This document shows positions 9,804-26,476 of a DNA stretch of 32,768 nt, piece after piece. The first letter of the stretch is position 1. Each line of letters begins with the position of its first letter. The position numbers were made by a program, and so were the translations under genes. The DNA is taken from positions 1 through 32,768 of IMG/VR virus record IMGVR_UViG_3300009149_007658; one strand, 5' to 3'. The notes beneath the pieces are model-generated. The model saw only the letters and a list, made by a program, of their open reading frames with translations. It did no database searches and was not told the DNA's origin. The stretch comes from a virus.

Positions 9804-10067
9804 GAGCTTATGGATAGGATGTCCAACCGGGAGTACGAGATGCGACTTGCTTGGATCAATAAGGATCTAAATGAACCAAGCAAGCTCGATCAGTATCTTA
9901 TGCGAATAATCCAATTTTTGGATGGTCTTTGGGGGAAACGAGATACCCTGAAGACTTTTTCATCTTTCCGGCTGAAATTCGGGGGAGGTGACGAGGAGTC
10001 GTCCGGTGAGGAGCGAGAAGCACAAAGTCGAAAAGCGTGGTCCGTTATAGGTATTAAGGCCAAATGA
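9738..10067 (+). CDS. T-like extension of the tail assembly chaperone (GT), reached by -1 frameshift
   Basis: This frame has no good start of its own; the only early start is an internal GTG at 9783 without a convincing ribosome site. It is open across the end of the G-like gene. After a -1 slip the fusion continues with LAGLYDGWIRVANQVGGCTVIELMDRM, and the total product is about 289 residues. GCTVIELMDRMSNREYEMR resembles T-type segments that recruit tube subunits (xxVxELxxxMSxREF). Residues in the fusion part are helical and end in an acidic then basic tail. The stop overlaps the tape measure ATG by four bases. Confidence 0.7.
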   Translation, partial: KLAGLYDGWIRVANQVGGCTVIELMDRMSNREYEMRLAWINKDLNEPSKLDQYLMRIIQFLDGLWGKRDTLKTFSSFRLKFGGGDEESSGEEREAQSRKAWSVIGIKAK

Positions 10068-12562
10068 CAGAGATTGACAGACTGCTTGTTAGGCTTGTTG
10101 GGGACGGAACCGATTTCGAGGATATGCTTCGTGAGGCGAGTGACGCGTCAGGTCGTGCCGCACGCGATATCACCAGGCATATGGACGGCACACGGCAGTC
10201 GGTGGCCTTGCTGTCTGTCCAATTTGTCAGACTAGGCGCGTCAATAAAAGCTGCCGGTAAAAAAATAGGCCTCGCGGGCGCCGTTATGTCGGCGGCGGTC
10301 ACCGCACCTATTACTCTCATTGGTAACAGCGCTATAAATGCGGCCAGTGACCTCAAAGAATCTTTCAATGCCATGGAAGTGGTTTTTAAAGAAAATTCGG
10401 CAGAGCTGAAGAAATTAGGCGAGACATCTGCTGATACTTGGGGTATGTCGACCACAGAGTTTAATCAATTTTCCGTCAAGTTTTCAGGATTTGCTAAGAA
10501 GGTAGCGGGCGACGGCGGTGACATTGTGGGGGTTATGAAGGATATTACCGGGCGGGTGGCTGACTTTGCTTCTGTGCATAATGTGGAAATGGCGGAAGCG
10601 GGTCGTATATTCCAGTCGACTATGGCGGGGGAAACTGAACCTATACGTCGTTTTGGTAAGGATCTGTCGGCGCGTGCGGTTGAGTTGTATGCTCTTGAGA
10701 CTGGCTTGATTAAGGCGGGCGAAAAGATGACAGCCTCGATAAAAACTGTGGCAACATACAACTTATTGATGCGAGAGACGGCCGAATTCCACGGAGACTT
10801 TGCGAACACAAGCACTGATATGGCAAATGCGTCACGGCGATCCGGGGCAGCTATGAAAAATTTGTCGGCTGAAATTGGCGAAATTTTATTGCCCATTAAA
10901 ATGAGGCTGATGTCTGTGCAGTCGCTGCTAATTGGTAGATTTATAGGTATGTCGAAGGAATCTAAAGCCCTCGTCGTGAAACTTGCTTTAGTGGCGGCTG
11001 CCATTGGACCTCTACTCACAGGCTTTGGACTGTTCCTGGTTCTTGGTGGTGCGGTTATCACCACGCTTGGTAAAATGGGCCTGGCGTTTTCCATCATGGC
11101 GAAGAAGGCTACAATAGCATGGGCGTCGGCAACTCTCGGCGTGAGCCTGCTGATCTCGGCTTTGATCGCTCTTGGTTTTGGTTTTTATAATCTTCAGAAG
11201 AAGACTGGTGTATTTGACCCACTGATCGCATCCTCAAAGGAATTGTGGAAATCGCTAAAAGCCTCCCTGATGCCTGTATTTCAGGATTTCAAGAAGCTTT
11301 TGACGGAAGATCTGATGCCTGTATTCAATGATGTAATTGCAATATATGGCGAACTTATTGTTGCCGCTGCTCCCGTTATTGTATTTTTTGGTAAAATTTT
11401 CGTCTTTGTGATAAAAGGATTTGTACTTCAGCTTAAGGCTCTAATTGGCGCAATTAGCTTGGTGGTTAAGGGACTTGGGTGGTTGGCCAAGGCGGGCAAA
11501 AAGACTATGGAATTCTTCAGAAAAGAAGTAGAAAAGCCGATTAAGGCGCCTAAAATCGAGGCGGCTAAAATCGAGGCGCCCAAAGTCAAGGCGGCCAAAG
11601 TCAAGGCGGCTGCCGCTGCCCTGACTGGTGATGCCGATGCTAGGGCCAAGGACATCAAGGAGGCGGCCAAGGCGGAGGCCAAACGACAGAAAGAAATCAA
11701 AAAACTAGAGGACGACATCAACTCAATGGGTTATGCCCTGGCCCGCCAAACTGGATCCGTTAAGAAATCAGCGGAGGAATGGCGAATACACGACATGCGT
11801 ATGCGGGCGACGGCCATGGGTTTAAGTGCCAATATTAAAGAATTCACAGAACTTGAGCGTTTACTTAAGTTAAAAAATCGCCAGGAAGCCATCAAAGAAT
11901 TCAACGAAAGCACGAGGGATGCAACCATTGCGATTCACCAGCAGACCATGGCCCTCGTCCTGGGTAATGAGGAATACCAACGACAGAAACTTGCCCTTGA
12001 CGCGACCACGGCGGGGGTCAAAGACTTTTCGAAAGAACTCGCTGAATTGGACCGGGCGAACGCGATGTACAAATTGGCCCAGGACATGGATGCCGCAAAG
12101 TCAGCGGGTAAGGCGTTGACCGAATCCCACGCCACGGCGGTGGACCGCCTCGCCAAACAAATCGCAGAAGTCATCCGATTGCGGGACCTGGGCGTCATAG
12201 GCCCGAAGACATATAAACGCGAAATCACTGCCATTGATAAGGAACTGAAGAGAATTCAGGATGAGGGCAAGGTCAAAGTGACGTTTGAATTCACCGGTTT
12301 GGACGCAGGCTCGCTCCAGGATATGAGGGACATTGAACAACAGATCGCGGCGATGTCTGAAGTTCAGATTGATGGAGGGGCCGTCCGCGAAGCCAAGCGT
12401 GCAGAGTTCCTTCGTGCCGGACTACGGGGCAAAGTAGAACTACCCGCGCAAGCAAAGCCGGATAAAGATGAAAAGAAGAAATCTGAGGATTTATTGGCGC
12501 AGATCGCGCGGAATACAGACCCGCGAGTTAATAAATTGAAAATAGAGGGCGCCAATCTATGA
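10064..12562 (+). CDS. Tape measure protein
   Basis: The 832-residue protein is long, helical and Ala/Lys-rich. It has an N-terminal coiled region and an amphipathic hydrophobic stretch (APITLIGNSAINAASDLKES). The segment GMSTTEFNQFSVKF is typical of tape measures. Several membrane-type helices lie at about 303-385 (KLALVAAAIGPLLTGFGLFLV, LGVSLLISALIALGFGFY) and at about 425-470. A pentapeptide array K-(I/V)-(E/K)-A-(A/P) sits near residues 492-516. Tape measures set tail length and exit through the tube to help DNA entry. By the usual 0.15 nm per residue the tail would be about 125 nm; this figure is inference. No peptidase motif was seen. Confidence 0.85.
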   Translation: MTEIDRLLVRLVGDGTDFEDMLREASDASGRAARDITRHMDGTRQSVALLSVQFVRLGASIKAAGKKIGLAGAVMSAAVTAPITLIGNSAINAASDLKESFNAMEVVFKENSAELKKLGETSADTWGMSTTEFNQFSVKFSGFAKKVAGDGGDIVGVMKDITGRVADFASVHNVEMAEAGRIFQSTMAGETEPIRRFGKDLSARAVELYALETGLIKAGEKMTASIKTVATYNLLMRETAEFHGDFANTSTDMANASRRSGAAMKNLSAEIGEILLPIKMRLMSVQSLLIGRFIGMSKESKALVVKLALVAAAIGPLLTGFGLFLVLGGAVITTLGKMGLAFSIMAKKATIAWASATLGVSLLISALIALGFGFYNLQKKTGVFDPLIASSKELWKSLKASLMPVFQDFKKLLTEDLMPVFNDVIAIYGELIVAAAPVIVFFGKIFVFVIKGFVLQLKALIGAISLVVKGLGWLAKAGKKTMEFFRKEVEKPIKAPKIEAAKIEAPKVKAAKVKAAAAALTGDADARAKDIKEAAKAEAKRQKEIKKLEDDINSMGYALARQTGSVKKSAEEWRIHDMRMRATAMGLSANIKEFTELERLLKLKNRQEAIKEFNESTRDATIAIHQQTMALVLGNEEYQRQKLALDATTAGVKDFSKELAELDRANAMYKLAQDMDAAKSAGKALTESHATAVDRLAKQIAEVIRLRDLGVIGPKTYKREITAIDKELKRIQDEGKVKVTFEFTGLDAGSLQDMRDIEQQIAAMSEVQIDGGAVREAKRAEFLRAGLRGKVELPAQAKPDKDEKKKSEDLLAQIARNTDPRVNKLKIEGANL
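11537..11611 (+). repeat. 15-bp imperfect repeats in the tape measure gene
   Basis: About five tandem 15-bp units encode the pentapeptide K-(I/V)-(E/K)-A-(A/P). The units alternate acidic and basic versions (KIEAP, KVKAA). They mark a boundary between the membrane-type half and the coiled-coil half of the protein. Confidence 0.75.
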
Positions 12563-13476
12563 GTACTTTACTTGGACCCCACAACTGGTCGAGCGGGCGG
12601 GACAGCGAAGGATACAGATCGTACTCGCTCACGTGGCTTGTCGAAGCGAGTAACGGCGCCGGGACTGATATCGATGACCCATCGGTCATTGCCAATACGG
12701 CGGGCCTGCCCCTTGTCGGGTCACGCTGGTCTGATTTGGCTTGGATTACCGGTTCGGATGCCTGGGCATTTTGTTCGCCGGAATACAGCATAACGCCATA
12801 TGAGTCTCAACCAGGCGAAGCGCCGTTGTACTATTTATTCAGTAATACCTTTACCCAAACGCCTGCCGAAAAGTGCCAGGACAAGTCAATAGAAAACCCA
12901 CTTAATTTGCCTCCTGATATTAACATCAACTGGACCAATAAAAAGATCCAGCGGCATGTTGACCGGGATGGTAGACCGTACAGAACGTCTACGGGCGAGC
13001 TCCTATTCGGGCAAGAGACTGAGACAGATGATGCAGATTGGGATGTTGTTATATCCCTAAATAGTACATGGCCGCCTCCTCTAGCGACGGTCAATGCTCT
13101 TAGGCATAATTTGCATAATGGTTCGATTTGGGGATTGCCGGCCGAAACCATCAAATTTAGCAAATATCAGGCGTCTCGAAAAATGTATGGAAAGTGTTTT
13201 TTTTATACGCGAAGCACGATGAGTTTTAGCATTCGGCCGGACTGGAATCAGTACTTGCCGGACAAGGGGCGAATGCAACTGGTAGGGGGCGGGACGGCGA
13301 CCGATCCCGATGACTGGGTTGTGTCCAAAGACATCTACGGCGAAAACAAACCCCTGCTTCGTCTTGATATACTCGGTAAACCGGTGGTGTCCGATAAGCA
13401 GATTCCGGCCACTATTGTACGGAGACCGTATCCAAAGGGAAATCTTTTACTGCTCGGGATTCCGTCGGTACTTTAG
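12559..13476 (+). CDS. Unrecognised protein after the tape measure, probable distal tail component
   Basis: This 305-residue protein begins at an ATGA overlap with the tape measure. It is rich in Trp, Tyr, Pro and Asp with few helices, including SWRWSDLAWI-like and NINWTNKKIQRHVDRDG segments and a C-terminal strand region (LLRLDILGKPVVSDKQIPATI). I recognise no family. Gene position after the tape measure is where distal tail and tip genes lie, so a tail-tip structural role is likely. It lacks the length of a typical Tal or receptor-binding hub protein. Confidence 0.5.
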   Translation: MSTLLGPHNWSSGRDSEGYRSYSLTWLVEASNGAGTDIDDPSVIANTAGLPLVGSRWSDLAWITGSDAWAFCSPEYSITPYESQPGEAPLYYLFSNTFTQTPAEKCQDKSIENPLNLPPDININWTNKKIQRHVDRDGRPYRTSTGELLFGQETETDDADWDVVISLNSTWPPPLATVNALRHNLHNGSIWGLPAETIKFSKYQASRKMYGKCFFYTRSTMSFSIRPDWNQYLPDKGRMQLVGGGTATDPDDWVVSKDIYGENKPLLRLDILGKPVVSDKQIPATIVRRPYPKGNLLLLGIPSVL

Positions 13477-13484
13477 GAGTAATT

Positions 13485-13856
13485 ATGGCTGGTGAAATTG
13501 TTGCTACACTTGCACTTACCGTCCTCAAGGACAAGCTGGACAACCAAGTCCAGCGTAGCGCTACCCTTGACATGACGACGGCCAAGGGCGGCGGACCCGG
13601 GTTTCAGACAGTCGGAACATCCGAAGAGGCCCTTGGCGGACTAAGTGATCTGAACACCAAAGGGATCGCATTCGTCGAAAATTTGGACAACACCAATTAC
13701 ATACAGATTGGTGTCCTTGTGGCTTCTGTCTTTTATCCCTTACTTCGGGTTAAAGCAGAAGAGTTCCAATTCCTCAGATTCGACCCGGATGGAACGCCAT
13801 ATGTCAAGGCGAATACAGCGGCGGTCGATGCCGATATAAGGGTATTTGACGATTGA
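13485..13856 (+). CDS. Unrecognised small tail-region structural protein
   Basis: The 123-residue product follows an AGGAG site. Its layout is two-part: an N-terminal TLALTVLKDKLDNQVQRSATLDMT with a Gly-rich loop, then beta-type strands (KGIAFVENLDNTNYIQIGV, FYPLLRVKAEEFQFLRF and a short YVKANTAAVDADIRVF). It resembles small strand-rich virion subunits, but no family is recognised. It is sandwiched between tail-region genes, so a tail-tip or fibre-attachment role is the simplest reading. Confidence 0.5.
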   Translation: MAGEIVATLALTVLKDKLDNQVQRSATLDMTTAKGGGPGFQTVGTSEEALGGLSDLNTKGIAFVENLDNTNYIQIGVLVASVFYPLLRVKAEEFQFLRFDPDGTPYVKANTAAVDADIRVFDD

Positions 13857-13894
13857 ACGATGGTTGCCGTCCATGCGGCGGCAGGAGCGAGTCC

Positions 13895-14386
13895 ATGCCA
13901 TTTGAGGAAGAGCCCGAACTCCCCAAACCTTTTGTTGATGTATCGGCGGGGGATCCTGATGACTCGCCAGAGAGCGTTAATAGGGTCACGGTTCGTCTGA
14001 GTATGATTCGGGAACGGTGGAGCGAAGATAGCCAATCATTCCCGTCCGCAATAGGGTGGGAAGAGTCTATTTATCACGATTCGCCGGCGTATATCGTGCC
14101 GGATTTTAAGATTGGCGCCGATGCCCTAAAACTAAATTTGGGTTGGGTTGAAGAGCCTATTCTTATATGCGTCTTGAATAAGACGTGTTGGAAGGGAACG
14201 GCCAACCCTTCCGCCGAACAAATTTCACAGATAAAAAAGTCGCTTGTTTGGATTGGTTTTGACGGGGAAACCTGGCCCCTGTGTATAAGCCCTGACGCGA
14301 GCCAACCTTTATTTGTGTCGGGCGCGTCTAGTGTTTACGTTAAGGCCGTCGAAGGCAATCCAACGATAGCGATATTCGCAACATAA
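13895..14386 (+). CDS. Unrecognised tail-region protein
   Basis: I chose ATG 13895 because GGAG stands seven bases upstream. A TTG at 13853 that overlaps the previous stop would add 14 residues with a CRPCGG motif and cannot be excluded. The 163-residue product has an acidic, Pro-rich N-terminus and then strand segments such as VNRVTVRLSMIRERW, EPILICVLNKTCW and a Ser/Val-rich end. No family is recognised. It overlaps the start of the mucin-like gene by one base (TAATG), so the two are probably translated together and may form one structure. Confidence 0.5.
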   Translation: MPFEEEPELPKPFVDVSAGDPDDSPESVNRVTVRLSMIRERWSEDSQSFPSAIGWEESIYHDSPAYIVPDFKIGADALKLNLGWVEEPILICVLNKTCWKGTANPSAEQISQIKKSLVWIGFDGETWPLCISPDASQPLFVSGASSVYVKAVEGNPTIAIFAT

Positions 14387-16443
14387 TGGCTGATAAAATA
14401 TTCGGACTTACCGAAAAGGATGTTGACAAGCTTAAGGAAATGGGCCTTGAGCTTGACACAATAGTCCAGGAGCTTCGCGGCGGTCCGGGTGAAGATGTTT
14501 ATCAGGCAGCGGACCATTACATCGCCAAGCTCCCTGATGACGGGGTTCTTCCCTCCGCGACTGATGGTGATGACGGCTGTCCCATCCCGGGGACCCATGA
14601 TCATTGCTGCATTTACAAGATTGACCTGAATCCCAAATCCGCTTCATTTGGTTCTCTAGTTAGGCTGAACGTCTCAAGCACAGCCGAGCCTATTCGCCAA
14701 GTTGTCTATAATATTTACTTGGAAGAGCGGTTAGCGAACCAGGGTACGTTTCGAGTTCTGCGTCTGAAAAATGGTGGCTGGCTGGCCGAGAAATCATCGG
14801 GTACGGCAACCACAACCACAACCACAACTACCGGAACGGGCTGCGCCGGCGCGTGCGTCTGGTCATGGAATACGGGGACGGATGAATGGGATGAACTCAT
14901 TAATACATGCGTCACCACAACTACCACAACTACCACTACGGGCGCCTGCGATTGCCCACAGACTACCACAACTACGACAGCGGTGTCCGGGACGACAACG
15001 TCGACGACTACGACTACGGCCTGCAAATGCCTGAAACCGCAATGCTGTGGAGTCCAGGCGGGTGATAGGTCGACTACCCGATGCTCAGAGGGCGGGAACG
15101 TCGCCCTGGTCTGTACAACTACGACTACGGGCGGACCCACAACTACCACAACTACCACAACTACCACATGCGATTGTGGGACGACGACCACGGGCGCAAG
15201 CGGTGATTTTGGGTGTGGCTTGTGCAGTTGGATTATCAATGCGTCGGGCAGCGCGACATACATTGGGTCTTCGTGTTCTGGTAATTGTATTTGTCCGCCA
15301 ACCCCGTCATCCCCAACATGCCAGCTAGTATCACTTCCGTGCTTGCGTCAATCGACGTTGCCGCCACCCGTGCCCGTTCCGGTGGAATGCTCCGGGACAT
15401 GTTCAATTACATGCGTGGGCGGGCACTTAATATCATCATCTAATTCTTGCAATACGTCTGTCGCAGGATGTTCGTGTTCGTTAACTTGCCCAGATACGGG
15501 ATGTGTTACAATAAATACCCCGTGCGTCGCTCCAACTACGACGACCGCAGCGGTTACAACGACTACCGCTGCGGGCGTTCCTTGTGATTATTGCTATGAA
15601 GTAACGACGACAACGGGTGTAACGACGACCACAACTACGAGCGCGTGCGAAACCACATGCAAACACCGATGGTCGACGAGCGGCGCTTGGGTTGTTGCTC
15701 AGGCGTGCCCATCGCCTGCGAAATGCTACTGCCCCGATCCGGATTACGATGGGCAAATGACTAATGAAGTCACTTGTACTAAGTGCGCGCCAACTACCAC
15801 ATCTACCACATCTACTACGACAACTACGACAACTACCGGGGCGCCAACTACCACTACCACCGCCGCTTGTGTTGCGTGTGACACCGATCTGAATGATCCT
15901 GCCTGGGCTGGATGTGCATCACAATATGGCGCCCAGTGTTTTTGCGTCTATACTTGTGAGGCGGGTACTTGGACACAATCAGCCATAGGATCCAATTGCG
16001 CGGGTTCGTGTGATGCGAGTTTATCTGTGCCGACTTACCCTGAATGTGGCCCGGGGCAGGGACTTTGTGAGTGTGTTTGCGTGCCTTGCGCGACGCCCTG
16101 CACAACTACGACTACCACAACTACCACAACTACCACAACTACCACAACGGGCGCCGGTGGCACGACCACTACAGGCGCCGGTGGCACGACCACTACAGGC
16201 GCCGGTGGCACGACCACTACGGGCGGACCAACTACAACTACAACAACAGCGACTCATGAAGCATGTTGCATATACGCCAAAGCACCAACAGAAGGATGCA
16301 TTTTCCAAGAGCATGATCTAATAAATTGCACAGATAATGTGGAAAATTGCACCTCAGTTGGCGGTCTCTGCTGCCAACCAGACTGTAATATTTTGAGGCA
16401 GGCGAGTTGTGAGCAATGCCCACCCACTTGGACAGATCAATAA
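14386..16443 (+). CDS. Mucin-like threonine-rich virion protein with cysteine modules
   Basis: The 685-residue protein has an N-terminal domain of about 135 residues that includes GTHDHCCIYKIDLN and probably anchors it in the particle. After that, poly-threonine tracts of 4 to over 15 residues alternate with small Cys-rich modules of roughly 30-50 residues. Several modules follow a CxxxCxW...W...C...CxC scheme (CAGACVWSWN; FGCGLCSWI; CETTCKHRWS). Near the end GAGGTTTT occurs in perfect tandem. The C-terminal domain is again Cys-rich (EACCIYAKAP, LCCQPDCN). Thr tracts between disulfide modules are the layout of mucins and of heavily O-glycosylated adhesins. The next gene encodes a polypeptide GalNAc-transferase-like enzyme, so these tracts may be its substrate. 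A fibre, whisker or head decoration is possible. Confidence 0.7.
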   Translation: MADKIFGLTEKDVDKLKEMGLELDTIVQELRGGPGEDVYQAADHYIAKLPDDGVLPSATDGDDGCPIPGTHDHCCIYKIDLNPKSASFGSLVRLNVSSTAEPIRQVVYNIYLEERLANQGTFRVLRLKNGGWLAEKSSGTATTTTTTTTGTGCAGACVWSWNTGTDEWDELINTCVTTTTTTTTTGACDCPQTTTTTTAVSGTTTSTTTTTACKCLKPQCCGVQAGDRSTTRCSEGGNVALVCTTTTTGGPTTTTTTTTTTCDCGTTTTGASGDFGCGLCSWIINASGSATYIGSSCSGNCICPPTPSSPTCQLVSLPCLRQSTLPPPVPVPVECSGTCSITCVGGHLISSSNSCNTSVAGCSCSLTCPDTGCVTINTPCVAPTTTTAAVTTTTAAGVPCDYCYEVTTTTGVTTTTTTSACETTCKHRWSTSGAWVVAQACPSPAKCYCPDPDYDGQMTNEVTCTKCAPTTTSTTSTTTTTTTTGAPTTTTTAACVACDTDLNDPAWAGCASQYGAQCFCVYTCEAGTWTQSAIGSNCAGSCDASLSVPTYPECGPGQGLCECVCVPCATPCTTTTTTTTTTTTTTTTGAGGTTTTGAGGTTTTGAGGTTTTGGPTTTTTTATHEACCIYAKAPTEGCIFQEHDLINCTDNVENCTSVGGLCCQPDCNILRQASCEQCPPTWTDQ
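16150..16221 (+). repeat. Three tandem 24-bp repeats encoding GAGGTTTT
   Basis: Units 16150-16173, 16174-16197 and 16198-16221 are identical except for the last base of the third. Each encodes GAGGTTTT in frame. Near-perfect identity suggests recent expansion and possible length variation between relatives. Confidence 0.95.
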
Positions 16444-16465: not shown

Positions 16466-18439
16466 ATGAAACTGACTATAGGTATGGCCCACCATACTGA
16501 CTTCCACGGTGTCTACTTCACCATTCAGCATATCCGACAGACGAACCAAAGACTAAAAGATTTTGAGTTTATTGTCGTTGATACCTCGGGCGGGTCAGCC
16601 AATCCGCTGAGTCAGGCGCATAGCAGCGATCTGGCCAATTTCATAGAACACTGCAAACGGGGGACCGCAGGCGCGCGTTTGGTCACGCTCGATGAAAAGC
16701 AGTTTTTTGGCACCAGCCAGGGCCGGAATGCTGTTTTTGATTTTGCTGACGATGATTCAGCTGTTATATGCATGGATTGTCACGTGTTACCCGAACCCGG
16801 GTCCATGGACGCACTTCTCAATTATTTTGAGAATAATCAGGATAGCAACGATCTCATCCAAGGGCCAATCCTGAATGATGATATGTCCGTTATGGCGTGC
16901 ACATTTGCTGATGAATGGCGGGAGGAGATGTGGGGTATTTGGGGCATGGATGACCGTTGTCTAAGCCACGAGGATGTAGAACAGTTGCCTATTGCGAGGC
17001 GTCTTGAATTTACCTCAGCTTTGCCTACGTTTGAGATTGGCGCTATGGGGCTTGGTTTGTTTGCGAGCATGAAATCGTCATGGCTTGCATTCAACCGTCA
17101 TTTTCGCGGGTTCGGCGGCGAGGAGTGGTACATCCATGAAAAGTTTCGGGCGGCGGGGCACAAGTGCCTTTGTCTCCCGTGGCTGCGGTGGACCCATCGA
17201 TTCGGCCGTCCGGACGGTATTGCCTATCCAATTTCACGGGAACTGAAGGTTCGCAATTACATCCTCGGGCATCAGGAGCTCAACTTGCCCCTGGGGCGTC
17301 CCTACGAGCATTTCGTAGAATCTGGTTTACTTTCTAAAGAAGTTTGGAACTGGCTACTCGAAGACCCGGAAAAACACATCCCGGAAATGGGAATTCCCCA
17401 GCAGATTCGAGCCCAGTTCGCGGAAGCACGGGAAAACCTATCCGCTCCGCCGGTGGAAGCGCCGGTGAACCGATCCCGTCCTCAGCCTATGTCGGGGTCA
17501 TCTGTATCTGAGATTTTGATATGGTGCAAAAAGATTCCACGAGATTTGGATGAGCATTTGGATTTAATGGCCATGTGGTCAGATCAGGTGGATCATGTTA
17601 CTGAATTTTCGGAACGGCGAGAGAGCGCCGTAGGCCTCCTCGCGGGCAAGCCCCTGAAATTTGTGAGCTATAATCTGGAAAATGACCTTTTATTAACGCA
17701 GGGGGGCGAGCTCCTTCAGGCGTTGGTCCGCGAAAATGACCAGCGAGTGGTCGATGGGGACGGTGGCCGGATTACGGAAATGGTCCAAATCCCGGGCAGC
17801 TCATTGACGGTGCCCCCTATTGAAGAAACGGATTTACTGTTCCTCGATACCCTTCACAACGGCTCCCGTCTATGGTCAGAACTTGTGTTGCACGGGCCTC
17901 AGGTTCGCCGAGCGATCATGATTCACGATACGGCGTCCTACGGCGAGAAGGGTGACGATGGAAGCCATGGGTTGAACGAGGCCCTCCGAAAATGGCTGGC
18001 GGAAAATCCCGAATGGTTCATCGCTTATTATAAACCTCATCAGTACGGGATGACGGTCATCAGCAAGGATGAACGCGACCGACCGCCGAATATAGTTCAC
18101 GCCTGGCCACCCGGCAAAGGACCCGGGACGGAATTGCAGAAAATCCTCAAAAGCGCCGGAATCGAACCGAATGCTAGTTGCGATTGTAACGGCAAAGCCC
18201 AACAGATGGATCTATGGGGCGTGCCCGGTTGTAACGAGCATTTTGATGAGATTGTGGCGTGGATGAAGGACGGCGAGGACCGGTGGGGCTGGAAGGGTAA
18301 GTGGAAGGCGGGCGCAAGGATGCTCGCTAAGGATCCGATCCTCGCCTTCAAATTAAGGCCCAGTGACCCGTTCCCCGGACTGATTCGCGCGTCAATTAAA
18401 CGAGCCCAGAGTGAAGAAAAAAGAGAAAAAACTACTTGA
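16466..18439 (+). CDS. Polypeptide GalNAc-transferase-like (GT27/GT-A) enzyme fused to a methyltransferase-like domain
   Basis: Residues 1-285 form a GT-A glycosyltransferase. It has CMDCHVLPEPG (D104-x-H106, the DxH metal motif of polypeptide GalNAc-transferases), then GFGGEEWYIHEKFRAAGH (215-232) like their GGEN...FRxxxCGG block, and RWTHRFGRP with H244 in the place of the third metal-ligand His. Residues about 345-545 resemble the methyltransferase-like protein of the next gene (HVTEF, LLFLDTLHNG, IMIHDT), but the cofactor loop is altered. Residues 550-600 are a small Cys-containing domain (GPGTELQKIL, CDC, MDLWGVPGC). It directly follows the threonine-rich gene with a 22-base gap and AGGAG site. 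GT60-type polypeptide GlcNAc transfer is an alternative. Activity is inferred. Confidence 0.75.
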   Translation: MKLTIGMAHHTDFHGVYFTIQHIRQTNQRLKDFEFIVVDTSGGSANPLSQAHSSDLANFIEHCKRGTAGARLVTLDEKQFFGTSQGRNAVFDFADDDSAVICMDCHVLPEPGSMDALLNYFENNQDSNDLIQGPILNDDMSVMACTFADEWREEMWGIWGMDDRCLSHEDVEQLPIARRLEFTSALPTFEIGAMGLGLFASMKSSWLAFNRHFRGFGGEEWYIHEKFRAAGHKCLCLPWLRWTHRFGRPDGIAYPISRELKVRNYILGHQELNLPLGRPYEHFVESGLLSKEVWNWLLEDPEKHIPEMGIPQQIRAQFAEARENLSAPPVEAPVNRSRPQPMSGSSVSEILIWCKKIPRDLDEHLDLMAMWSDQVDHVTEFSERRESAVGLLAGKPLKFVSYNLENDLLLTQGGELLQALVRENDQRVVDGDGGRITEMVQIPGSSLTVPPIEETDLLFLDTLHNGSRLWSELVLHGPQVRRAIMIHDTASYGEKGDDGSHGLNEALRKWLAENPEWFIAYYKPHQYGMTVISKDERDRPPNIVHAWPPGKGPGTELQKILKSAGIEPNASCDCNGKAQQMDLWGVPGCNEHFDEIVAWMKDGEDRWGWKGKWKAGARMLAKDPILAFKLRPSDPFPGLIRASIKRAQSEEKREKTT

Positions 18440-19001
18440 ATTCGCCTATTGCCGCGCGAGGGACAAGCCCAGCGATATAAACATGCATGTCCCGCGACTA
18501 CGACAACTCGCCGAGCAATGTGAACATGTCACAGAGTTCGGCGTTCGTCATGGCGTAAGCACGACGGCCCTGCTCGCGGGCGCCGTCAGCGGAAAGCTTC
18601 AACGGCTGGTCAGCTATGACCATAAGTTGTGGGGCAGGGAGAATGATTTACGGGACTTGGCGCCGGATGTTTTCAAGTTCGTTAAAAAGTCGACTCTTGA
18701 AATAAACATCGCCCCGACCGACATGCTTTTCATCGATAGCCGTCATACTTATTCCCAGCTGTCCTACGAATTGCTTCGCGGGTATGACAAAGTCAGAAGG
18801 TGGATTGCCCTCCACGATACGAGGCTTTTCGGCCACCGCGATGAAAGTATGGTTAAAGGACCGGGCCTCCTACTTGCCGTTCGCGAGTTTTTGGCCGCAA
18901 ACATGGATTGGTTCGTCGCTGAGCATTATGAGTATAACAACGGGTTTACCGTTTTGAGTCGGAATTCCAAAGATAGACCATCCATCATAATGGAGATTTG
19001 A
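18411..19001 (+). CDS. Class I SAM methyltransferase-like protein (Methyltransf_24 type)
   Basis: The GTG start overlaps the previous gene by 29 bases. The 196-residue protein shows VTEFGVRHGVSTTALLAG (41-57, motif I region), RLVSYDH (65-71), DMLFIDSRHTYSQL (104-117) and WIALHDT (131-137), the layout of Methyltransf_24 and cephalosporin hydroxylase-like proteins. Unlike the related C-terminal domain of the upstream enzyme, the EFGVRHG loop is intact, so this copy could bind SAM. It might methylate sugar hydroxyls of the glycan. An alternative is a non-methylating relative of the same fold. Confidence 0.7.
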   Translation: MKKKEKKLLEFAYCRARDKPSDINMHVPRLRQLAEQCEHVTEFGVRHGVSTTALLAGAVSGKLQRLVSYDHKLWGRENDLRDLAPDVFKFVKKSTLEINIAPTDMLFIDSRHTYSQLSYELLRGYDKVRRWIALHDTRLFGHRDESMVKGPGLLLAVREFLAANMDWFVAEHYEYNNGFTVLSRNSKDRPSIIMEI

Positions 19002-19514
19002 GTGCACGGAAGTAGTATGAAGCTGATGGAAGGTCTCATCGATAAATACGTTCCCCATACGGATTCGACCTCTGGTAGTTTTTCCGTGTTGGATGTCGGG
19101 TCCCATTCTAGCAATGGGCCAAGCTATCGCCGCATGTGCGAGGACCGGGGGCTTGCTTATACTGGTATGGATATTCGCGAAGGACCAAATGTTGATCTCG
19201 TGGTACATCACGATTTCCAGAATACGTTCTCAGATCACATCAGTGGAAATTATGATATCGTCATTTCTGGACAGTGTATGGAACATGTGGCTGCCCCTTG
19301 GCTATGGATTCGAGAAATTTACAAACTTGTAGAAGTAGGCGGATTGGTGATCGTAATCGCCCCTTGGAAGTGGCAATTTCACGCGCATCCGATTGACTGC
19401 TGGCGCGTGTTGCCCGATGGGATGCGGGGACTATTTGTGTGGACGGATCTCAAGGTTCTGGAGGTTGGTATTCCGGAGGGTACTCCTGATTGTTTTGGGG
19501 TGGGCACCAAATGA
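19002..19514 (+). CDS. SAM-dependent methyltransferase (Methyltransf_11 type)
   Basis: The GTG start follows TGGAG by six bases and directly abuts the upstream stop. In the 170-residue protein, SVLDVGSHSSNG (28-39) is motif I, YTGMDIREG (53-61) the acidic cofactor-binding strand, and DIVISGQCMEHV (85-96) and GGLVIVIAPWKW the later motifs. The protein is short for a stand-alone class I methyltransferase and has little room for an acceptor domain. Cluster context suggests a sugar or glycan acceptor. It overlaps the sulfotransferase start (ATGA). Confidence 0.75.
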   Translation: MHGSSMKLMEGLIDKYVPHTDSTSGSFSVLDVGSHSSNGPSYRRMCEDRGLAYTGMDIREGPNVDLVVHHDFQNTFSDHISGNYDIVISGQCMEHVAAPWLWIREIYKLVEVGGLVIVIAPWKWQFHAHPIDCWRVLPDGMRGLFVWTDLKVLEVGIPEGTPDCFGVGTK

Positions 19515-20092
19515 GTATTGTGAACAAAAAATACGGCCACGTGTTTGTCCACGTCCCGAAGACGGGCGGGACTTCGATGGAGCGCACGTGGTTCGTGGGC
19601 GGCAATGATCACGAGAAAATTGAACGCATGGACTCGCCGTCCGATTGTTTTCGATGGGGTTTTGTTCGCAATCCATTTGACCGGCTCGTATCAGTTCACT
19701 CGGCCATCTGGCAGCACCCCAACAAACTGTTGCGTAAATTTGTTCCGAAGGATTTCGATGAATTTGTTCAGGCGCTCCCGGATTTAAGGGAGTTTGTCCA
19801 TATCACTCCACAGGTCAAATTCCTTTGTATTAAGGGCAAAATCGCCGTTGATTTCGTGGGGAGGTATGAAGATTTATACCGTGATTGGGCGTTTGTTTGT
19901 TGGAATATTGGCAGGTACGCCACCATCCCCCACATCAATAAGACTGAACACAAACCATGGGGTGAATATTACACCTCACCGCAAACCGTCGACGCAGCGA
20001 TAGAATACTATAAGGACGATTTTAAGGTTTTTGGTTATCGGAGCGAGATTTATGCATGTAACAGCGATTTGTCCGACATTTCGTCACCCTGA
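19511..20092 (+). CDS. PAPS-dependent sulfotransferase
   Basis: The ATG at 19511 overlaps the previous stop by ATGA; 193 residues. FVHVPKTGGTSME (12-24) is the 5'-phosphosulfate-binding loop and GFVRNPFDRLVSVHS (50-64) contains the 3'-phosphate-binding Arg and Ser of the carbohydrate sulfotransferase superfamily (Sulfotransfer_2-like). The enzyme would transfer sulfate from PAPS to a hydroxyl, most likely on a sugar, given its neighbours. Cellular PAPS would come from the host. Length is somewhat below typical sulfotransferases, but both cofactor motifs are intact. Confidence 0.85.
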   Translation: MSIVNKKYGHVFVHVPKTGGTSMERTWFVGGNDHEKIERMDSPSDCFRWGFVRNPFDRLVSVHSAIWQHPNKLLRKFVPKDFDEFVQALPDLREFVHITPQVKFLCIKGKIAVDFVGRYEDLYRDWAFVCWNIGRYATIPHINKTEHKPWGEYYTSPQTVDAAIEYYKDDFKVFGYRSEIYACNSDLSDISSP

Positions 20093-20789
20093 GTTGTTAG
20101 CCAACAGCGTGGCGCTATGGATGATGCAGGATTACCCTCTTGAGGATAGACGATTAATCATTCTCGATGACGATCCTACGTTTCATCGCCACGGGGCGGC
20201 GGGGTGGCAGCTTTACCCTATTGCGCCACGCCTACCATCGATTTCCCATAAGTATAACATGCTCTTGGATAGGGCATTTGATGGACAGACGGATGTCATT
20301 ATGGTTTGGGAAGATGACGATATCTATCTTCCTGGGTACGTCTCAGCTCATGTCGCGGCGCTGGAAAACGCGGAGTATAGTAAGGCGGAACACGTGCTGT
20401 CAGACTATAAAAAGGGTCAGATTATCGTGGAGCCTGCCCGGGGGCGATTCCATTCTTCGATGGCGTTCCGGTCTGAATTAATTGACCGCGTTGGCGGCTG
20501 GCCAGATACGCGACGCGCGGATTTCGATCAACAGCTGATGTCCCTGCTCGAGGAGAATTCGGCGCAAACCGAGTCCCCGTGGGATGATTCCCATCCTGAA
20601 TCCATCCCGTTCATTTACCGCTGGCATAGCGGCGCGGCCCATTGTCAGAGTACGATGAAGAGCCCGGACGATGAGACATGGTATGACCGCGCGGCGGAGG
20701 CGTACGCTAAAGTGCCGTTTGTCGGGACCCTTGCTCCGCGTTTGGACGATTTTTCCAAGGCGTGCGTGGCGAGGTACGAGGCCAAATGA
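20052..20789 (+). CDS. Family 2-like glycosyltransferase (GT-A)
   Basis: I use ATG 20052, with GGAG nine bases upstream; it lies 41 bases inside the sulfotransferase gene. The 245-residue protein starts HVTAICPTFRHPELLANSV, as GT2 enzymes do, has LIILDDDP (36-42) and the nucleotide-sugar metal motif VWEDDDIYLPGY (85-96, D88-D90). A later SSMAFRSELIDRVGGWPD is the acceptor-side GGWPD signature of GT2. It would extend or initiate a glycan using an NDP-sugar. The donor cannot be told. Confidence 0.85.
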   Translation: MHVTAICPTFRHPELLANSVALWMMQDYPLEDRRLIILDDDPTFHRHGAAGWQLYPIAPRLPSISHKYNMLLDRAFDGQTDVIMVWEDDDIYLPGYVSAHVAALENAEYSKAEHVLSDYKKGQIIVEPARGRFHSSMAFRSELIDRVGGWPDTRRADFDQQLMSLLEENSAQTESPWDDSHPESIPFIYRWHSGAAHCQSTMKSPDDETWYDRAAEAYAKVPFVGTLAPRLDDFSKACVARYEAK

Positions 20790-21772
20790 GAGTTCTCATA
20801 ACGGGGGTTGCCGGCCATCTCGGTAGTAAATTGGCCCGATGGTTGATCAATGAAAACCAAGATAAGGTCTTTGGTATCGATGACCTTTCCAGTGGATATA
20901 TCGAGAGTGTGCATCCAGGGGTGGTTTTCCGCAAGCGGTCCCTTGGACGTGATCCAATGCCTGATCTTGGTGATATCGATTACGTCTTTCATTTTGCGGC
21001 GTATGCCGCCGAGGGTCTATCGCCATTTATCCGCCACCACAACTACGTCAATAATCTTGTCGCGACGGCTGATGTGGTCAATTTCTGCATTAAAAATAAA
21101 GTAAGGCGTTTGGTTTTCACGTCCTCAATGGCAGTGTACGGGGAGGGGAACCCACCGTTTTCGGAAATATCTGAATGCGATCCCATCGACCCGTACGGCA
21201 ACGCCAAGCTTGCGTGCGAGCGGGACATTCAAATTGCGGGCGTTCAGCATGGCCTGGATTGGTGCATTATTCGGCCTCATAATATCTACGGACCGGGCCA
21301 GGATATCTGGACCCCATACCGAAATGTTCTTGGGATCTGGATGGCGAAGGCTCTGCAAAACTTGCCTTTGACCGTCTACGGGAGCGGTCTCCAAAGACGC
21401 GCATTCAGCTATATTGATGATATTTTACCGTGTTTGTATGAGGCCGCAGCGTCGCCGCACGCCTCGAAGCAAATCATTAATCTTGGTGGAACTGACGCGG
21501 TTAGTATTAACAAGGTGGCGTCCGTAGTATCAACTCTCACCGACACGCCGATAAAGTATGCGGAGGGGCGCCATGAGGTCTTAAACGCATGGTGCACAAC
21601 TTCCAAAAGTCGGAGTATTTTGAAGTATAAAGAGTCCGTACCATCAATTTCGGGGATCAGCGCTATGTGGGAGACCGCCAAAATGATGTGGGCTCGTTTT
21701 CCGCAGCGTCGCGGAAGCCACAAAATTGATATGGAGATCACGGAAGGACTTTACTCGTACTGGAAAGACTGA
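20786..21772 (+). CDS. NAD-dependent nucleotide-sugar epimerase, GalE-like SDR
   Basis: The ATG overlaps the previous stop (ATGA). The 328-residue extended SDR has the Rossmann motif TGVAGHLG (6-13), FTSSMAVYG (111-119) and the catalytic pair Y137/K141 in PYGNAK. The SSMAVYG form lacks the Asp/Glu seen in 4,6-dehydratases, so C4 epimerisation (UDP-Glc/Gal or UDP-GlcNAc/GalNAc) is the better guess. In this island it could make UDP-GalNAc for the GT27-like enzyme. RPHNIYGPGQ and SGLQRRAFSYIDD are the usual substrate-binding segments. Confidence 0.85.
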   Translation: MRVLITGVAGHLGSKLARWLINENQDKVFGIDDLSSGYIESVHPGVVFRKRSLGRDPMPDLGDIDYVFHFAAYAAEGLSPFIRHHNYVNNLVATADVVNFCIKNKVRRLVFTSSMAVYGEGNPPFSEISECDPIDPYGNAKLACERDIQIAGVQHGLDWCIIRPHNIYGPGQDIWTPYRNVLGIWMAKALQNLPLTVYGSGLQRRAFSYIDDILPCLYEAAASPHASKQIINLGGTDAVSINKVASVVSTLTDTPIKYAEGRHEVLNAWCTTSKSRSILKYKESVPSISGISAMWETAKMMWARFPQRRGSHKIDMEITEGLYSYWKD

Positions 21773-21832
21773 TGCTTCATCTGCCACCAAAACATTACGC
21801 TTGCCAGACATATGTGGGAATAGGAGATCAGC

Positions 21833-22552
21833 ATGAAATGGGCCGTAGGCGTCACGACAGTTCCGAAGCGGATGAACGATGGGTTGTTGGATCGGACTTT
21901 GGAATCCCTAAACGATACGGGGTTCATTGATCCGGTGATGTTTGTGGATGGCGAGGGCCTGGCCACTGATTGGGCCGTTTTTCGAGGTGAGTCCGTTACG
22001 GCTTACGGCAATTTCTTACTTGGGATTTGGGAGCTTTTTATCAGGAATCCCTCGGCGGACCGGTTCGCCATGTTCCAGGATGATCTGGTCGCATCCAAGA
22101 ATCTTCGGGCGTACCTGGAGGCGGTCCCGTATCCGCCGTCATCGTATCTGAACCTCTACACATGGCCATGCAACGCCAACACGGCGGGTAACCCTAATTG
22201 GAACCCGGATCGGACAGGGTTTATTTTGAGTGACCAGATGGGACGCGGTGCGGTTGCCCTGGTGTTCGATAATGCTACGGTGCGGACCCTTTTGTCGAGC
22301 CGTGAGATGGTCGAGCATTTGAATGATTCCCACCGCAGTACGCGGGCCATTGACCGCGCCGTGAAGAATGCGTTGGGCGGTGCCCACATCCGGGAGTTCG
22401 TACACAATCCAAGCTTGGTTCAGCATACCGGGACGTATTCTGTAATTTCCAAGCGGAACAACCACCACCCGGAATCGCCCATATTCAACGGCGAGGATTT
22501 TGATCTCTTATCACTATTGGAATGCAATGGACCAAAAAGTCACGATTCGTAA
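21833..22552 (+). CDS. Glycosyltransferase-like protein (GT-A, FQDDL motif)
   Basis: A TAGGAG site precedes the ATG; 239 residues. WAVGVTTVPKRMNDGLLDRTLESL at the N-terminus and RFAMFQDDLVASKNL (78-91, likely DxD-type metal site D83-D84) look like a GT-A enzyme. The later DQMGRGAVALVFDNATVRTLL and VHNPSLVQHTG fit the acceptor side of GT25- or MGAT4-like folds. The exact family is not recognised. It starts 60 bases after the epimerase gene, the longest gap within this part of the island. Confidence 0.65.
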   Translation: MKWAVGVTTVPKRMNDGLLDRTLESLNDTGFIDPVMFVDGEGLATDWAVFRGESVTAYGNFLLGIWELFIRNPSADRFAMFQDDLVASKNLRAYLEAVPYPPSSYLNLYTWPCNANTAGNPNWNPDRTGFILSDQMGRGAVALVFDNATVRTLLSSREMVEHLNDSHRSTRAIDRAVKNALGGAHIREFVHNPSLVQHTGTYSVISKRNNHHPESPIFNGEDFDLLSLLECNGPKSHDS

Positions 22553-22838
22553 TAGCAGCCTTGATTGGCGTGAAATTGGAAATAGGACTGTTGAGCTCCT
22601 CGATATAAACGTTGGCAACGCGGAGCGACGGCAGGGGGTCGGCACCAAGCTTGTTTTGGAAATGATGGAAGATATGCCTAGCGATACCGGGCTGATCATT
22701 GCCATAACCCGCCAAAGTAATGAGGTTGCCCAGGAATTTTATGAATCTTTGGGCTGGCGGATCGTAGGACGTCTTCACCGGTTCTATCCCGATAAGAGTG
22801 GCGGAGAATCAGCCCTTATGTATGGATTGGATGTATGA
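22527..22838 (+). CDS. GNAT-family N-acetyltransferase
   Basis: The ATG at 22527 with a weak GGAA upstream gives 103 residues, overlapping the previous gene by 26 bases. LLDINVGNAERRQGVGTKLVLEMM (24-47) holds GNAT motif A, RRQGVG, which binds the CoA pyrophosphate. NEVAQEFYESLGWRIVGR is motif B. The N-terminal strand region is short. In this cluster an amino-sugar N-acetyl- or N-acyltransferase acting after the DegT aminotransferase is an attractive reading, but protein or small-molecule targets are possible. Confidence 0.8.
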   Translation: MDQKVTIRNSSLDWREIGNRTVELLDINVGNAERRQGVGTKLVLEMMEDMPSDTGLIIAITRQSNEVAQEFYESLGWRIVGRLHRFYPDKSGGESALMYGLDV

Positions 22839-23788
22839 AAGTCGGATCATTTGTCTTTGCAACCGATCAGGGACTTGGTTATTTAGCTAAGTCTTTTTAC
22901 GATAATGACGTCGTGACTGATGTGATTATGGTGCAGCACGGAAGCCGTGAAAATCACGTAGATTGGTATCCGGGCGCCACGATCCTGCCCGCAAGCAAAC
23001 TCAAGATCATGCACGCCAAAGAATTCGTCCGAGAAATGGACGTGATGTTTTTCTTTGAGACGCCGTTTGATTGGAATATCCTTGAGTTTTGTCGCGAGGT
23101 GGGAACAAAAACCGTATTAATGCCCATGCACGAGTGCACGCCTAAGATCCTACCACAAACGCCTGATGTGTTCCTTTGCCCGTCCGCTTTAGAACTTGGG
23201 CTGTTTGGTGGCTCATTCATCCCCGTCCCGGTCGGGGTCCCGTGGTCTGAGCGACGTGTGGCCAAGCGGTTCGTACACAATGCCGGCAACGGGGGCCTGC
23301 TTGGGCGGAACGGCACAGACGTAGTCGTGAAGGCGATGGAGTACATCGAAAGTGACGCTGAAATAGTCATACGTTCCCAAGAGAAGATTGTGGGGTTGGA
23401 TCAGGAACCGGAACATGTCCCGGCCGATCAACTTTACGACGGTGATGTTTTTCTATTTCCTGAGAAATTTGACGGTTTATCCTTGCCACTTCAGGAGGCA
23501 TTTGCCTCGGGAATGCTTGTTATGGCCTTGGATCGATATCCGGTCAATACGTGGCTCCCGCGAGGGCCGTTACTCCAGGTTGAGCGGTACGAATCCAACA
23601 GCATCGCAAAGGGTTTCTACGAATTTGATGAGGCGATTGTGAGCCCAAAGAATGTTGCACGGTGGATTGATTCCTGGTACGGCCAAGAAATCGGCGATTT
23701 TTCGATGATGGGCAAGTGGTGGGGGCAGCAGAATTCTTGGGTGGAGCTTCGCCCCAAATATATTGAGTTTTTGGAGGCCATCGAATGA
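22835..23788 (+). CDS. Family 4-like glycosyltransferase (GT-B)
   Basis: The ATG overlaps the upstream stop (ATGA). The 317-residue protein has a C-terminal GT-B donor domain with VFLFPEKFDGLSLPLQEAF (205-223) and SGMLVMALD after it, matching the EX7E region of GT4 enzymes, although Asp (D213) stands where the first Glu is usual. The N-terminal half is reduced, with FFFETPFDWNILEF and LMPMHECTP. It would transfer a sugar with retention. The substituted first residue is a mild oddity. Confidence 0.75.
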   Translation: MKVGSFVFATDQGLGYLAKSFYDNDVVTDVIMVQHGSRENHVDWYPGATILPASKLKIMHAKEFVREMDVMFFFETPFDWNILEFCREVGTKTVLMPMHECTPKILPQTPDVFLCPSALELGLFGGSFIPVPVGVPWSERRVAKRFVHNAGNGGLLGRNGTDVVVKAMEYIESDAEIVIRSQEKIVGLDQEPEHVPADQLYDGDVFLFPEKFDGLSLPLQEAFASGMLVMALDRYPVNTWLPRGPLLQVERYESNSIAKGFYEFDEAIVSPKNVARWIDSWYGQEIGDFSMMGKWWGQQNSWVELRPKYIEFLEAIE

Positions 23789-23842
23789 AGGCTATAACGA
23801 GGGTCGCGCGGACGGGTCCGCTCGATGCAGAACGGGGCGAGC

Positions 23843-24751
23843 ATGAAAATTCTGTACGTCGGTAACCACAACCAACCCAATTCCAACGACGATGAGGGCG
23901 CTATTGCGTATTCCCTCGGCAAGGTACTCGGGCACGCTGTTGTGACAGCGGGCGAGGACATTCCCCAGGAACAGATATTGTCCCTGGCAGGTCAGTTTGA
24001 CTTGGTACTGTTCCACAAATGGGCTGATTTCGATACCATTGCCAAAATCAAAACGCGCAAAGCGTTTTGGTATTTCGATTTGGTTGATTACGATGACCCT
24101 GAAATCTTGCATAGGTGTCGGCTGCGCATGGCATGGATGGACCGCATGATGCCCCTGGTCGACATTGGGTTTTGTACGGACGGGGACTGGGTGCGAGCCA
24201 ATGCTTGTCACGGCAAACTTGTCCGGTTGACCCAGGGCGCTGATGAGAGATTCACCGGCCTGCGCCTGACTAATTCCCTTAAACGCAAGATACTCTTTAC
24301 TGGTATTAAAGACGGCGGAGTTGGCCGACGCGAGTTTGTTGATTTCCTGAAGGCGACATACGGACCCGCTTTACGGTGGATCAGAAACGGCACCCATCAG
24401 GAGAGCCTTGCCCAGGAAATAGCGGACGCGTCCATCGTGGCGGCGCCGGACCACCCAACTACAGATGATTACTGGAGTAACCGGGTTTACCTAACTCTCG
24501 GTTTTGGTGGATTTTTGATGCATCCCTATTGCGGGACCCTTGCCAATCATTATGTAGATGGGAAAGAGATTGTCCTTTACCGGGGACATGATGATTTTAA
24601 GAATAAAGCTAGCCACTACATGGGCCAGCCGGAACTCCGCGAGGCGATAGCTAAAGCCGGGCTGCGGCGGACCCTAAAGGAACATACTTATACTCACCGA
24701 TGCCAAACTTTGATAGAAATGGTGCAAAATGCCAAGACCTATAATGGATGA
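23843..24751 (+). CDS. CgeB-like glycosyltransferase (GT-B, Glyco_trans_1_2)
   Basis: I choose ATG 23843, preceded by GGGGCGAG; ATG 23825 in frame is the alternative. The 302-residue protein (counted from 23843) has YVGNHNQPNSNDDEGAI at the N-terminus and, at about 209-245, DDYWSNRVYLTLGFGGF followed by YVDGKEIVLYRG, the signature of CgeB-type spore maturation and phage GT-B enzymes. LRRTLKEHTYTHR closes the domain. It overlaps the next gene by 23 bases. A sugar-transfer role in glycan assembly is likely; donor and acceptor are unknown. Confidence 0.8.
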   Translation: MKILYVGNHNQPNSNDDEGAIAYSLGKVLGHAVVTAGEDIPQEQILSLAGQFDLVLFHKWADFDTIAKIKTRKAFWYFDLVDYDDPEILHRCRLRMAWMDRMMPLVDIGFCTDGDWVRANACHGKLVRLTQGADERFTGLRLTNSLKRKILFTGIKDGGVGRREFVDFLKATYGPALRWIRNGTHQESLAQEIADASIVAAPDHPTTDDYWSNRVYLTLGFGGFLMHPYCGTLANHYVDGKEIVLYRGHDDFKNKASHYMGQPELREAIAKAGLRRTLKEHTYTHRCQTLIEMVQNAKTYNG

Positions 24752-25244
24752 GAATTTTTGGCGTGATCGGCTGATGACCGCCGACGACAAGGGGGAACGG
24801 CACAAGGCCGTTTTTGAGTGCCCTATGTCGACATGGCGTAGCATTGAGGATGCCCACAGGCGGATTTTGGATAGGTTGGTAAAACCCGAAGATTCTATCC
24901 TTGACGTTGGTTGTGGCTGGGGGAGACTCCTTTGCCTATTGCCGGACTCATGGGCTGGTATTTACCATGGTTTGGATATCAGTCCTGATTTCGTGGAACT
25001 GGCCAGGGAAGAGCACGAGAGTCAATACTGGTTTTTTCAGATGGATATGCTTGAAATTCCTGAGAATGCAGGCCTGGAACGTGAGTATGATTGGGCGGTC
25101 GCTATCAGTATAAAGCCCATGATAATCCGTGAAGTCAGCCTTGAGGCGTGGCAAGAGCGGGAGGCGGCTATTCTGACCCGGGCAAAGAAAATTTTGTTTT
25201 TGGAATACGATGCGGACGATCCAGGTGCAATTAAGGAGCGATAG
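24729..25244 (+). CDS. Class I SAM-dependent methyltransferase
   Basis: The ATG at 24729 gives 171 residues; ATG 24744 is an alternative start that removes five residues, and neither has a strong ribosome site. SILDVGCGWGRLLCLLP (56-72) is a textbook motif I, YHGLDISPDFVELAREE the second strand and motif, and EYDWAVAISIKPMII the later region. The acceptor part is short. Placed between a GT-B enzyme and a dehydratase-like gene, it probably acts on a sugar or glycan. The stop overlaps the region of the next start. Confidence 0.8.
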   Translation: MPRPIMDENFWRDRLMTADDKGERHKAVFECPMSTWRSIEDAHRRILDRLVKPEDSILDVGCGWGRLLCLLPDSWAGIYHGLDISPDFVELAREEHESQYWFFQMDMLEIPENAGLEREYDWAVAISIKPMIIREVSLEAWQEREAAILTRAKKILFLEYDADDPGAIKER

Positions 25245-25246
25245 TG

Positions 25247-26233: not shown

Positions 26234-26242
26234 GAGAGAGAG

Positions 26243-26476
26243 ATGGATGTAAAAGACGGACAGACCTGTGGCACTTGTGGTTTGTGTCATGCGGCGAATG
26301 ATAAGTTGGGTACGTGCCGAATGGACCCGCCAAATTTGATGTTCCTCCCAAAACCGGCGAATGTGACTACCGGCGCGGGACCGCAGATGCAGCCAACGAC
26401 GATTTACCCGACTGTCGATATCACCGATGTGGGATGCGGGAGGCATACACAACGTGCAGACCTACGAAGAACTTGA
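26243..26476 (+). CDS. Small zinc-binding-type cysteine protein
   Basis: AGGAGAGAGAG precedes the ATG; 77 residues. TCGTCGLC, then GTCRMDPP and DVGCGRH give a CxxCxxC...C...C pattern with a terminal His. This matches a group of small phage proteins with CGTC...C...PP...CGxH that look like metal-binding knuckles. It overlaps the aminotransferase gene in another frame. Function is unknown; a redox or assembly helper role is conceivable. Confidence 0.65.
   Translation: MDVKDGQTCGTCGLCHAANDKLGTCRMDPPNLMFLPKPANVTTGAGPQMQPTTIYPTVDITDVGCGRHTQRADLRRT

Follow-up and report, generated by a model that had tools for sequence, protein, structure and literature searches.

A phage and bacterial glycosyltransferase family with a GT27/GT60-like DxH motif and a probable role in glycosylating adjacent mucin-like proteins

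In an environmental virus contig, a gene for a putative glycosyltransferase (GT) directly follows a gene for a protein with long threonine runs, which raises the question of what this enzyme glycosylates. Sequence comparison and structure modeling suggest, as the best reading of the locus, that the enzyme probably belongs to a phage and bacterial GT-A family that glycosylates Thr residues of the adjacent mucin-like protein. The features of the locus are listed in Table 1.

A preliminary description had given the extent of the gene as 16466-17330, which corresponds to the first 288 aa, but the open reading frame (ORF) was found to run on to 18439 and to encode two further domains. An AGGAG sequence precedes the start, which lies 22 bases past the end of the poly-Thr gene. 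When the full 657-aa protein was compared with Pfam at E up to 1, only PF00535 (GT2) was matched, with 23.9 bits vs. a cutoff of 23.3, and no ricin-type lectin domain was found. The non-GT remainder of the protein consists of the methyltransferase-like part and the Cys domain. The fusion of a GT to a Methyltransf_24-like domain recurs in about 25 relatives, and the C-terminal domain with the motif CxC...MDxWGxxGC is common to about 10 other family members. The product of the next gene, 18411-19001, matches PF13578 in Pfam; this protein and the second domain of the enzyme are paralogous Methyltransf_24-like domains.

Table 1. Coordinates of features in the window (the whole stretch of DNA analyzed, 32,768 bases)
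Feature	Position	Strand	Description or basis
Source DNA			32,768-base virus record (IMG/VR IMGVR_UViG_3300009149_007658)
Tail module	10064..14386	+	Tape measure protein 10064-12562 (PHROGs) followed by small genes; immediately ahead of the poly-Thr gene
Poly-Thr/Cys protein, proposed acceptor	14386..16443	+	685 aa; 22 bp upstream of GT, same strand
Whole ORF	16466..18439	+	657 aa: GT domain, Methyltransf_24-like domain, small Cys domain
GT-A glycosyltransferase domain	16466..17330	+	Translation, conservation, AF2 model, Foldseek/VIA-align
Second domain, residues ~344-548	17495..18109	+	Homologous to neighboring Methyltransf_24-type protein 18411-19001
C-terminal Cys domain, residues ~548-650	18107..18415	+	Motif CxC...MDxWGxxGC
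Sugar cluster	18411..27434	+	Domain scans
Methyltransferases	18411, 19002, 24729	+	Sugar cluster
Glycosyltransferase-like genes	20031, 22835, 23825	+	Sugar cluster; 20031 and 22835 weak matches
GalE-like and LegB/dTDP-glucose-dehydratase-like SDRs	20762, 25244	+	Sugar cluster
DegT/LegC-like aminotransferase	26427	+	Sugar cluster

In IMG/VR, scanning with the single sequence gave 19 relatives and scanning with a profile gave 398, of which 80 were kept (about 400 loci in 2.9 million contigs). The GTDB species genomes contained 124 relatives, and 80 of these were also kept. They occur in Alpha- and Gammaproteobacteria, Desulfobulbaceae, Planctomycetes, Thermomicrobiales, and Acidobacteria, plus an archaeal MAG, and some of them may be proviral. 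No family member was found in the INPHARED phages (tblastn, 50,697 phage records) and no relative was found in the PLSDB plasmids.

The preliminary description had pointed to DxH at D104 and H106, a GGE block followed by FRxxG, and H244 before RFGRP, and all of these were confirmed at those residues. In the translation, MDCH carries D104 and H106, FGGEEWY contains G217, G218, E219, and E220, KFRAAG holds FRxxG at 227-231, and THRFGRP contains H244. An earlier conservation pass used the first 74 viral sequences, and the final set was made up of 117 non-redundant members, 49 viral and 68 bacterial. Across these viral contigs and bacterial genomes, D104 is present in 117/117 members and H106 in 116/117, while H244 (115/116), E219 (113/116), and E220 (115/116) are nearly as constant; G217-E220, Y222, H224, K226, and W242 are also near-invariant. 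PF00535 was matched by every family member scanned. The GT2-type DxD metal motif is absent, and DxH is present in all members but one. Since these residues are near-invariant across the family, the motif set is conserved and not a product of chance. The divergent member, L019, has DSP in place of DxH, has lost GGEE and the C-terminal His, and has no mucin-like neighbor. L019 would fit an inactive or lectin-like GT fold that binds without transfer, but the metal and acid residues are near-invariant in all other members and L019 also lacks a mucin-like neighbor, so this explanation is very improbable for the family. In some members (L007, L016, L034, and others), the MWGxW and FEIPAQG motifs of the GT domain are separated by a Cys-rich insertion that resembles a zinc ribbon (CxC...CxxC).

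The motifs are not equally informative. The xED motif and the C-terminal His are common GT-A core features, whereas the replacement of DxD by DxH has been reported as confined to GT27 and GT60 (PMC7185993). Therefore, DxH is the diagnostic part, the GGE block and the late His add little specificity, and the argument for a polypeptide acceptor rests on DxH. The preliminary description had taken the whole motif set as the reason to expect transfer onto a polypeptide hydroxyl; this expectation is partly supported, by DxH, by a predicted fold closest to GT27, and by the linkage to Thr runs, which strengthens it, but not by GGE and the late His, which are not specific to GT27. Residue 220 is a Glu where the GalNAc-transferases have Asn, and thus the retaining alpha linkage of GT27 cannot be assumed. 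Inverting GT-A enzymes mostly use the Asp or Glu of xED as the base (PMC7185993), and inverting chemistry is plausible judging from E220 at the catalytic-base position.

An AlphaFold2 model of the GT half, built with 14 family sequences, had a pLDDT of 86.4 and a pTM of 0.89. The best 50 chains found by Foldseek in the PDB were all GT27, with a top E of 4e-13. With VIA-align, the first 28 rows were all GT27 (Z 22.6-20.0, rmsd ~3 Å over ~250 residues) and a single GalNAc-T4 entry ranked lower (Z 19.1); the matches after GT27 were K4CP chondroitin polymerase (19.9), RmlT (18.6), LARGE1 (18.0), and TarS (17.2). Because the margin over K4CP is small, the predicted fold alone does not prove a relationship with GT27. 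The rank of K4CP also bears on a different role in the same pathway, in which another enzyme would start the glycan on the Thr-rich protein and the 16466-18439 enzyme would extend the chain on a sugar acceptor, like chondroitin polymerase or GT7. We consider this unlikely. Besides K4CP as the next structural match (Z 19.9), several more GT-like genes downstream are consistent with it, as is the acid of GGEE at the base position, since inverting GT7 enzymes have an acid at this position of their motif. Clade 5 of GT-A unites GT7, GT2-CHS, GT27, and GT60 (PMC7185993), which also suits an extending enzyme. However, by the published account DxH occurs in GT27 and GT60 alone and is not expected in GT7 or K4CP, and the gene with a fixed place right behind the Thr-rich gene is the family GT.

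At the sequence level, the resemblance to GT27 is weak. The best PDB match of the family profile was TarP (1e-8 over residues 1-123), a stretch that is the generic nucleotide-binding half, and the best PDB sequence matches were the N-terminal halves of GT2 wall-teichoic-acid enzymes. GalNAc-T10 was matched at 2.5e-4 over most of the domain, T7 at 0.01, and others at 0.1-0.9, with the T10 and T7 matches running through the C-terminal half. The top PDB match for a profile of residues 84-262 was GalNAc-T7 (E 0.016), and SPAMAGGLF, GGE, and the GHIYR His fall in register in that alignment. When the enzyme is aligned with human GalNAc-T2, D104 pairs with D, H106 with H, GGE with GGE, E219 with E, E220 with N, and H244 with H (the His of GHVF), which bears out the claim that the motifs follow the order of the animal GalNAc-transferases. 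The GalNAc-T2 sequence used was verified against 2ffu except for the first dozen residues. GALNT2 alone scored 3.8 bits against the family profile, not above shuffles (up to 8.3 bits), and hhalign gave no significant match to GALNT2 as a single sequence, although it did pair GGE and His. Neither phmmer with the single protein against the PDB nor a profile of the C-terminal part from 11 sequences found a GT, and PF11397 (GT60) did not appear in the family lists of 14 members (E up to 5, weak matches filtered out). The enzyme appears GT27/GT60-like in its predicted working, yet the Glu in place of Asn at the base position, the lack of a detected lectin domain, and the weak similarity do not allow formal membership of GT27, and it is filed as a member of neither family. 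Of the GT27 features, DxH and the C-terminal His are shared by the family. The preliminary description had also let its reading depend on the closest relatives; these are all GT27 among solved folds but generic GT2 N-terminal halves among sequence matches.

The genes next to the family GT provide a separate line of evidence. The 14386-16443 protein contains 162 Thr, and its Cys-rich mini-domains are separated by 18 Thr runs of 4-16 residues. The Thr-run codons (ACT31/ACA28/ACG27/ACC26) are used evenly, and microsatellite slippage as the sole origin of the runs was rejected for this reason. A same-strand gene was counted as mucin-like if any 25-aa window of its product reached 36% Thr and 60% Thr+Ser+Pro; loci were thinned at 80% GT identity, and the other positions from -8 to +8 in the same loci served as the control. 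A mucin-like gene was found at -1 in 32/46 viral loci vs. 19/378 elsewhere (p=4e-24) and in 9/39 bacterial loci vs. 7/390 elsewhere (p=1e-6), and a stricter run-based test in viruses gave 24/46 at -1 (p=2e-17 vs. other positions), although all of these p-values are indicative since neighboring genes of one locus are partly dependent on each other and the cutoffs were set after the data were seen. A mucin-like gene is missing from -1 at about one-third of the viral loci and at most of the bacterial ones. The reverse scan, an unbiased (ACN)14 search of viral contigs, gave 73/80 matches in Thr-frame ORFs. With at least 900 bp downstream required, a family GT was present within 3 kb downstream in 5/46 Thr-run ORFs, two of the five being alike, and the other 41/46 were in viral contigs without a family GT nearby. 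Most Thr-run proteins therefore do without this GT. For comparison with the 5/46, the family as a whole was seen at about 400 loci in 2.9 million contigs. Viewed from the GT, the linkage to Thr-run proteins independently points to Thr of a polypeptide as the acceptor.

The Thr-rich proteins at -1 differ in their N-termini, and some contain Calx-beta, laminin-G, or fn3 domains. Farther upstream, family loci often have tape-measure genes; both observations suit virion surface proteins. In one subgroup, GT-adjacent Thr-rich proteins (L027, L035, L050, L052, L064, L067, L073, L080, L083, and L086-L088) have in common the C-terminal tag C-x(2-6)-C-x-x-L-x-[FY]-stop, as in CEPDCNKLGY and CKKLNF. This ending occurs in 39 of 12,948 ORFs, 38/39 of them Thr-rich near the C-terminus, with tandem arrangements of two or three in some cases. 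The tag may serve as a signal for recognition or attachment; the 14386-16443 protein is without it. Other Thr-run proteins in viral contigs (L180, L188, L232, L179, and L222) have a hydrophobic C-terminal segment and a basic tail (e.g., GERRALIAIGAAITAAGATRIRR), and these ends resemble surface-anchoring signals.

The linkage can also be set against the idea that the GT acts on phage DNA or on glycans of the host surface (LPS or teichoic acid), and that it has a Thr-rich neighbor only by chance, through its place where the tail module ends. Modification of O-antigen or DNA is common among phage GTs (PMC12619734), and the profile resemblance to TarP/TarS/RmlT would fit. Nevertheless, the adjacency is specific to -1, recurs with unrelated Thr-rich proteins, and is also seen in bacterial chromosomes beside exported-looking Thr-rich proteins, while PqqD fusions suggest a peptide substrate. 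We regard such a target as improbable, more so than chain extension.

Among the bacterial relatives, Hpr_kinase_C was found in 12/58, fused PqqD in 7/58, and fused GT25 in 17/58; many have HprK_rel_A-like N-terminal domains, and one, L127, has a GalE fusion above the cutoff. Their commonest neighbors are PqqD and NTP_transf_5 genes. Just upstream in L098, L117, L118, and L143 lies a gene for a small protein that combines Thr-rich stretches with an export signal of the RR...PAHA type; in the upstream protein of L130, RR is present and PAHA is absent. Among loci L089-L166, the GT forms a cassette with PqqD, NTP_transf_5, and an HprK-related kinase-like domain, and some of these loci also encode a Thr-rich protein that looks exported. 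In RiPP pathways, peptides are bound by PqqD domains, and by this analogy a polypeptide substrate is plausible for the bacterial relatives too.

From motif conservation, the predicted fold, and genetic linkage, we infer the following pathway for the phage. D104-x-H106 and H244 would form the Mn2+/NDP-sugar site, as in GT27/GT60, with E219/E220 lining the acceptor side. The GT would attach the first sugar to Thr of the upstream 14386-16443 protein, which is probably a tail-associated virion surface protein, and the downstream sugar-modifying genes would then probably extend or decorate the glycan. The 18411-27434 cluster possibly carries out this elaboration. The protein at 19490-20092 contains FVHVPKTGGTS and looks sulfotransferase-like by eye, with no match in the NCBIfam scan. 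Our guess for the donor, from the likeness to GT27 and the one GalE fusion, is a UDP-hexose or HexNAc.

A broader proposal, to which we give an even chance, is that uncultured phages have a whole unit for mucin-type O-glycosylation, in which a dedicated GT27/GT60-like initiating enzyme is paired with its own poly-Thr virion protein, and that a related chromosomal version in bacteria acts on exported Thr-rich proteins with a PqqD/HprK-type cassette. DxH GT-A enzymes acting on polypeptides have been described mainly from animals and protists. If the proposal is true, prokaryotes and viruses would have a counterpart of the mucin glycosylation of animals, and an ancestor or a convergent case would be placed beside GT27. 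The family could then provide soluble bacterial tools for mucin-type glycosylation, and surface shielding or adhesion would be hinted at as the role of poly-Thr proteins in environmental phages. A literature search, in which subscription journals were partly covered, found nothing on point about GT27-like phage enzymes or poly-Thr phage proteins.

Compared with known systems, the enzyme is most like the GT27 GalNAc-transferases (GalNAc-T1/T2/T10 and Toxoplasma GalNAc-T3), its best structural matches, with which it shares the GT-A fold, DxH, the GGE block, the C-terminal metal His, and, as proposed here, a Thr-rich acceptor. It differs from them in Glu220 for Asn, a fused methyltransferase-like domain with no lectin domain found, an identity of only ~15%, and a viral and bacterial family with the proposed acceptor encoded next door. 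The GT2-CHS enzyme K4CP (2z87) is the next-best fold match and falls in GT-A clade 5 with GT27 and GT60; it has a DxD motif and a sugar acceptor, unlike the phage enzyme with its DxH. The GT60 polypeptide alpha-GlcNAc-transferases (PF11397) have the DxH replacement in common with GT27 (PMC7185993), and no GT60 structure was among the matches listed for the GT model. Mycobacteriophages also use their own GTs (Che8 gp110, Corndog gp38) to glycosylate their capsid and tail proteins (PMC12363180), but the proteins modified in that system belong to the capsid and tail tube and are not Thr-run proteins (PMC12363180, PMC12619734).
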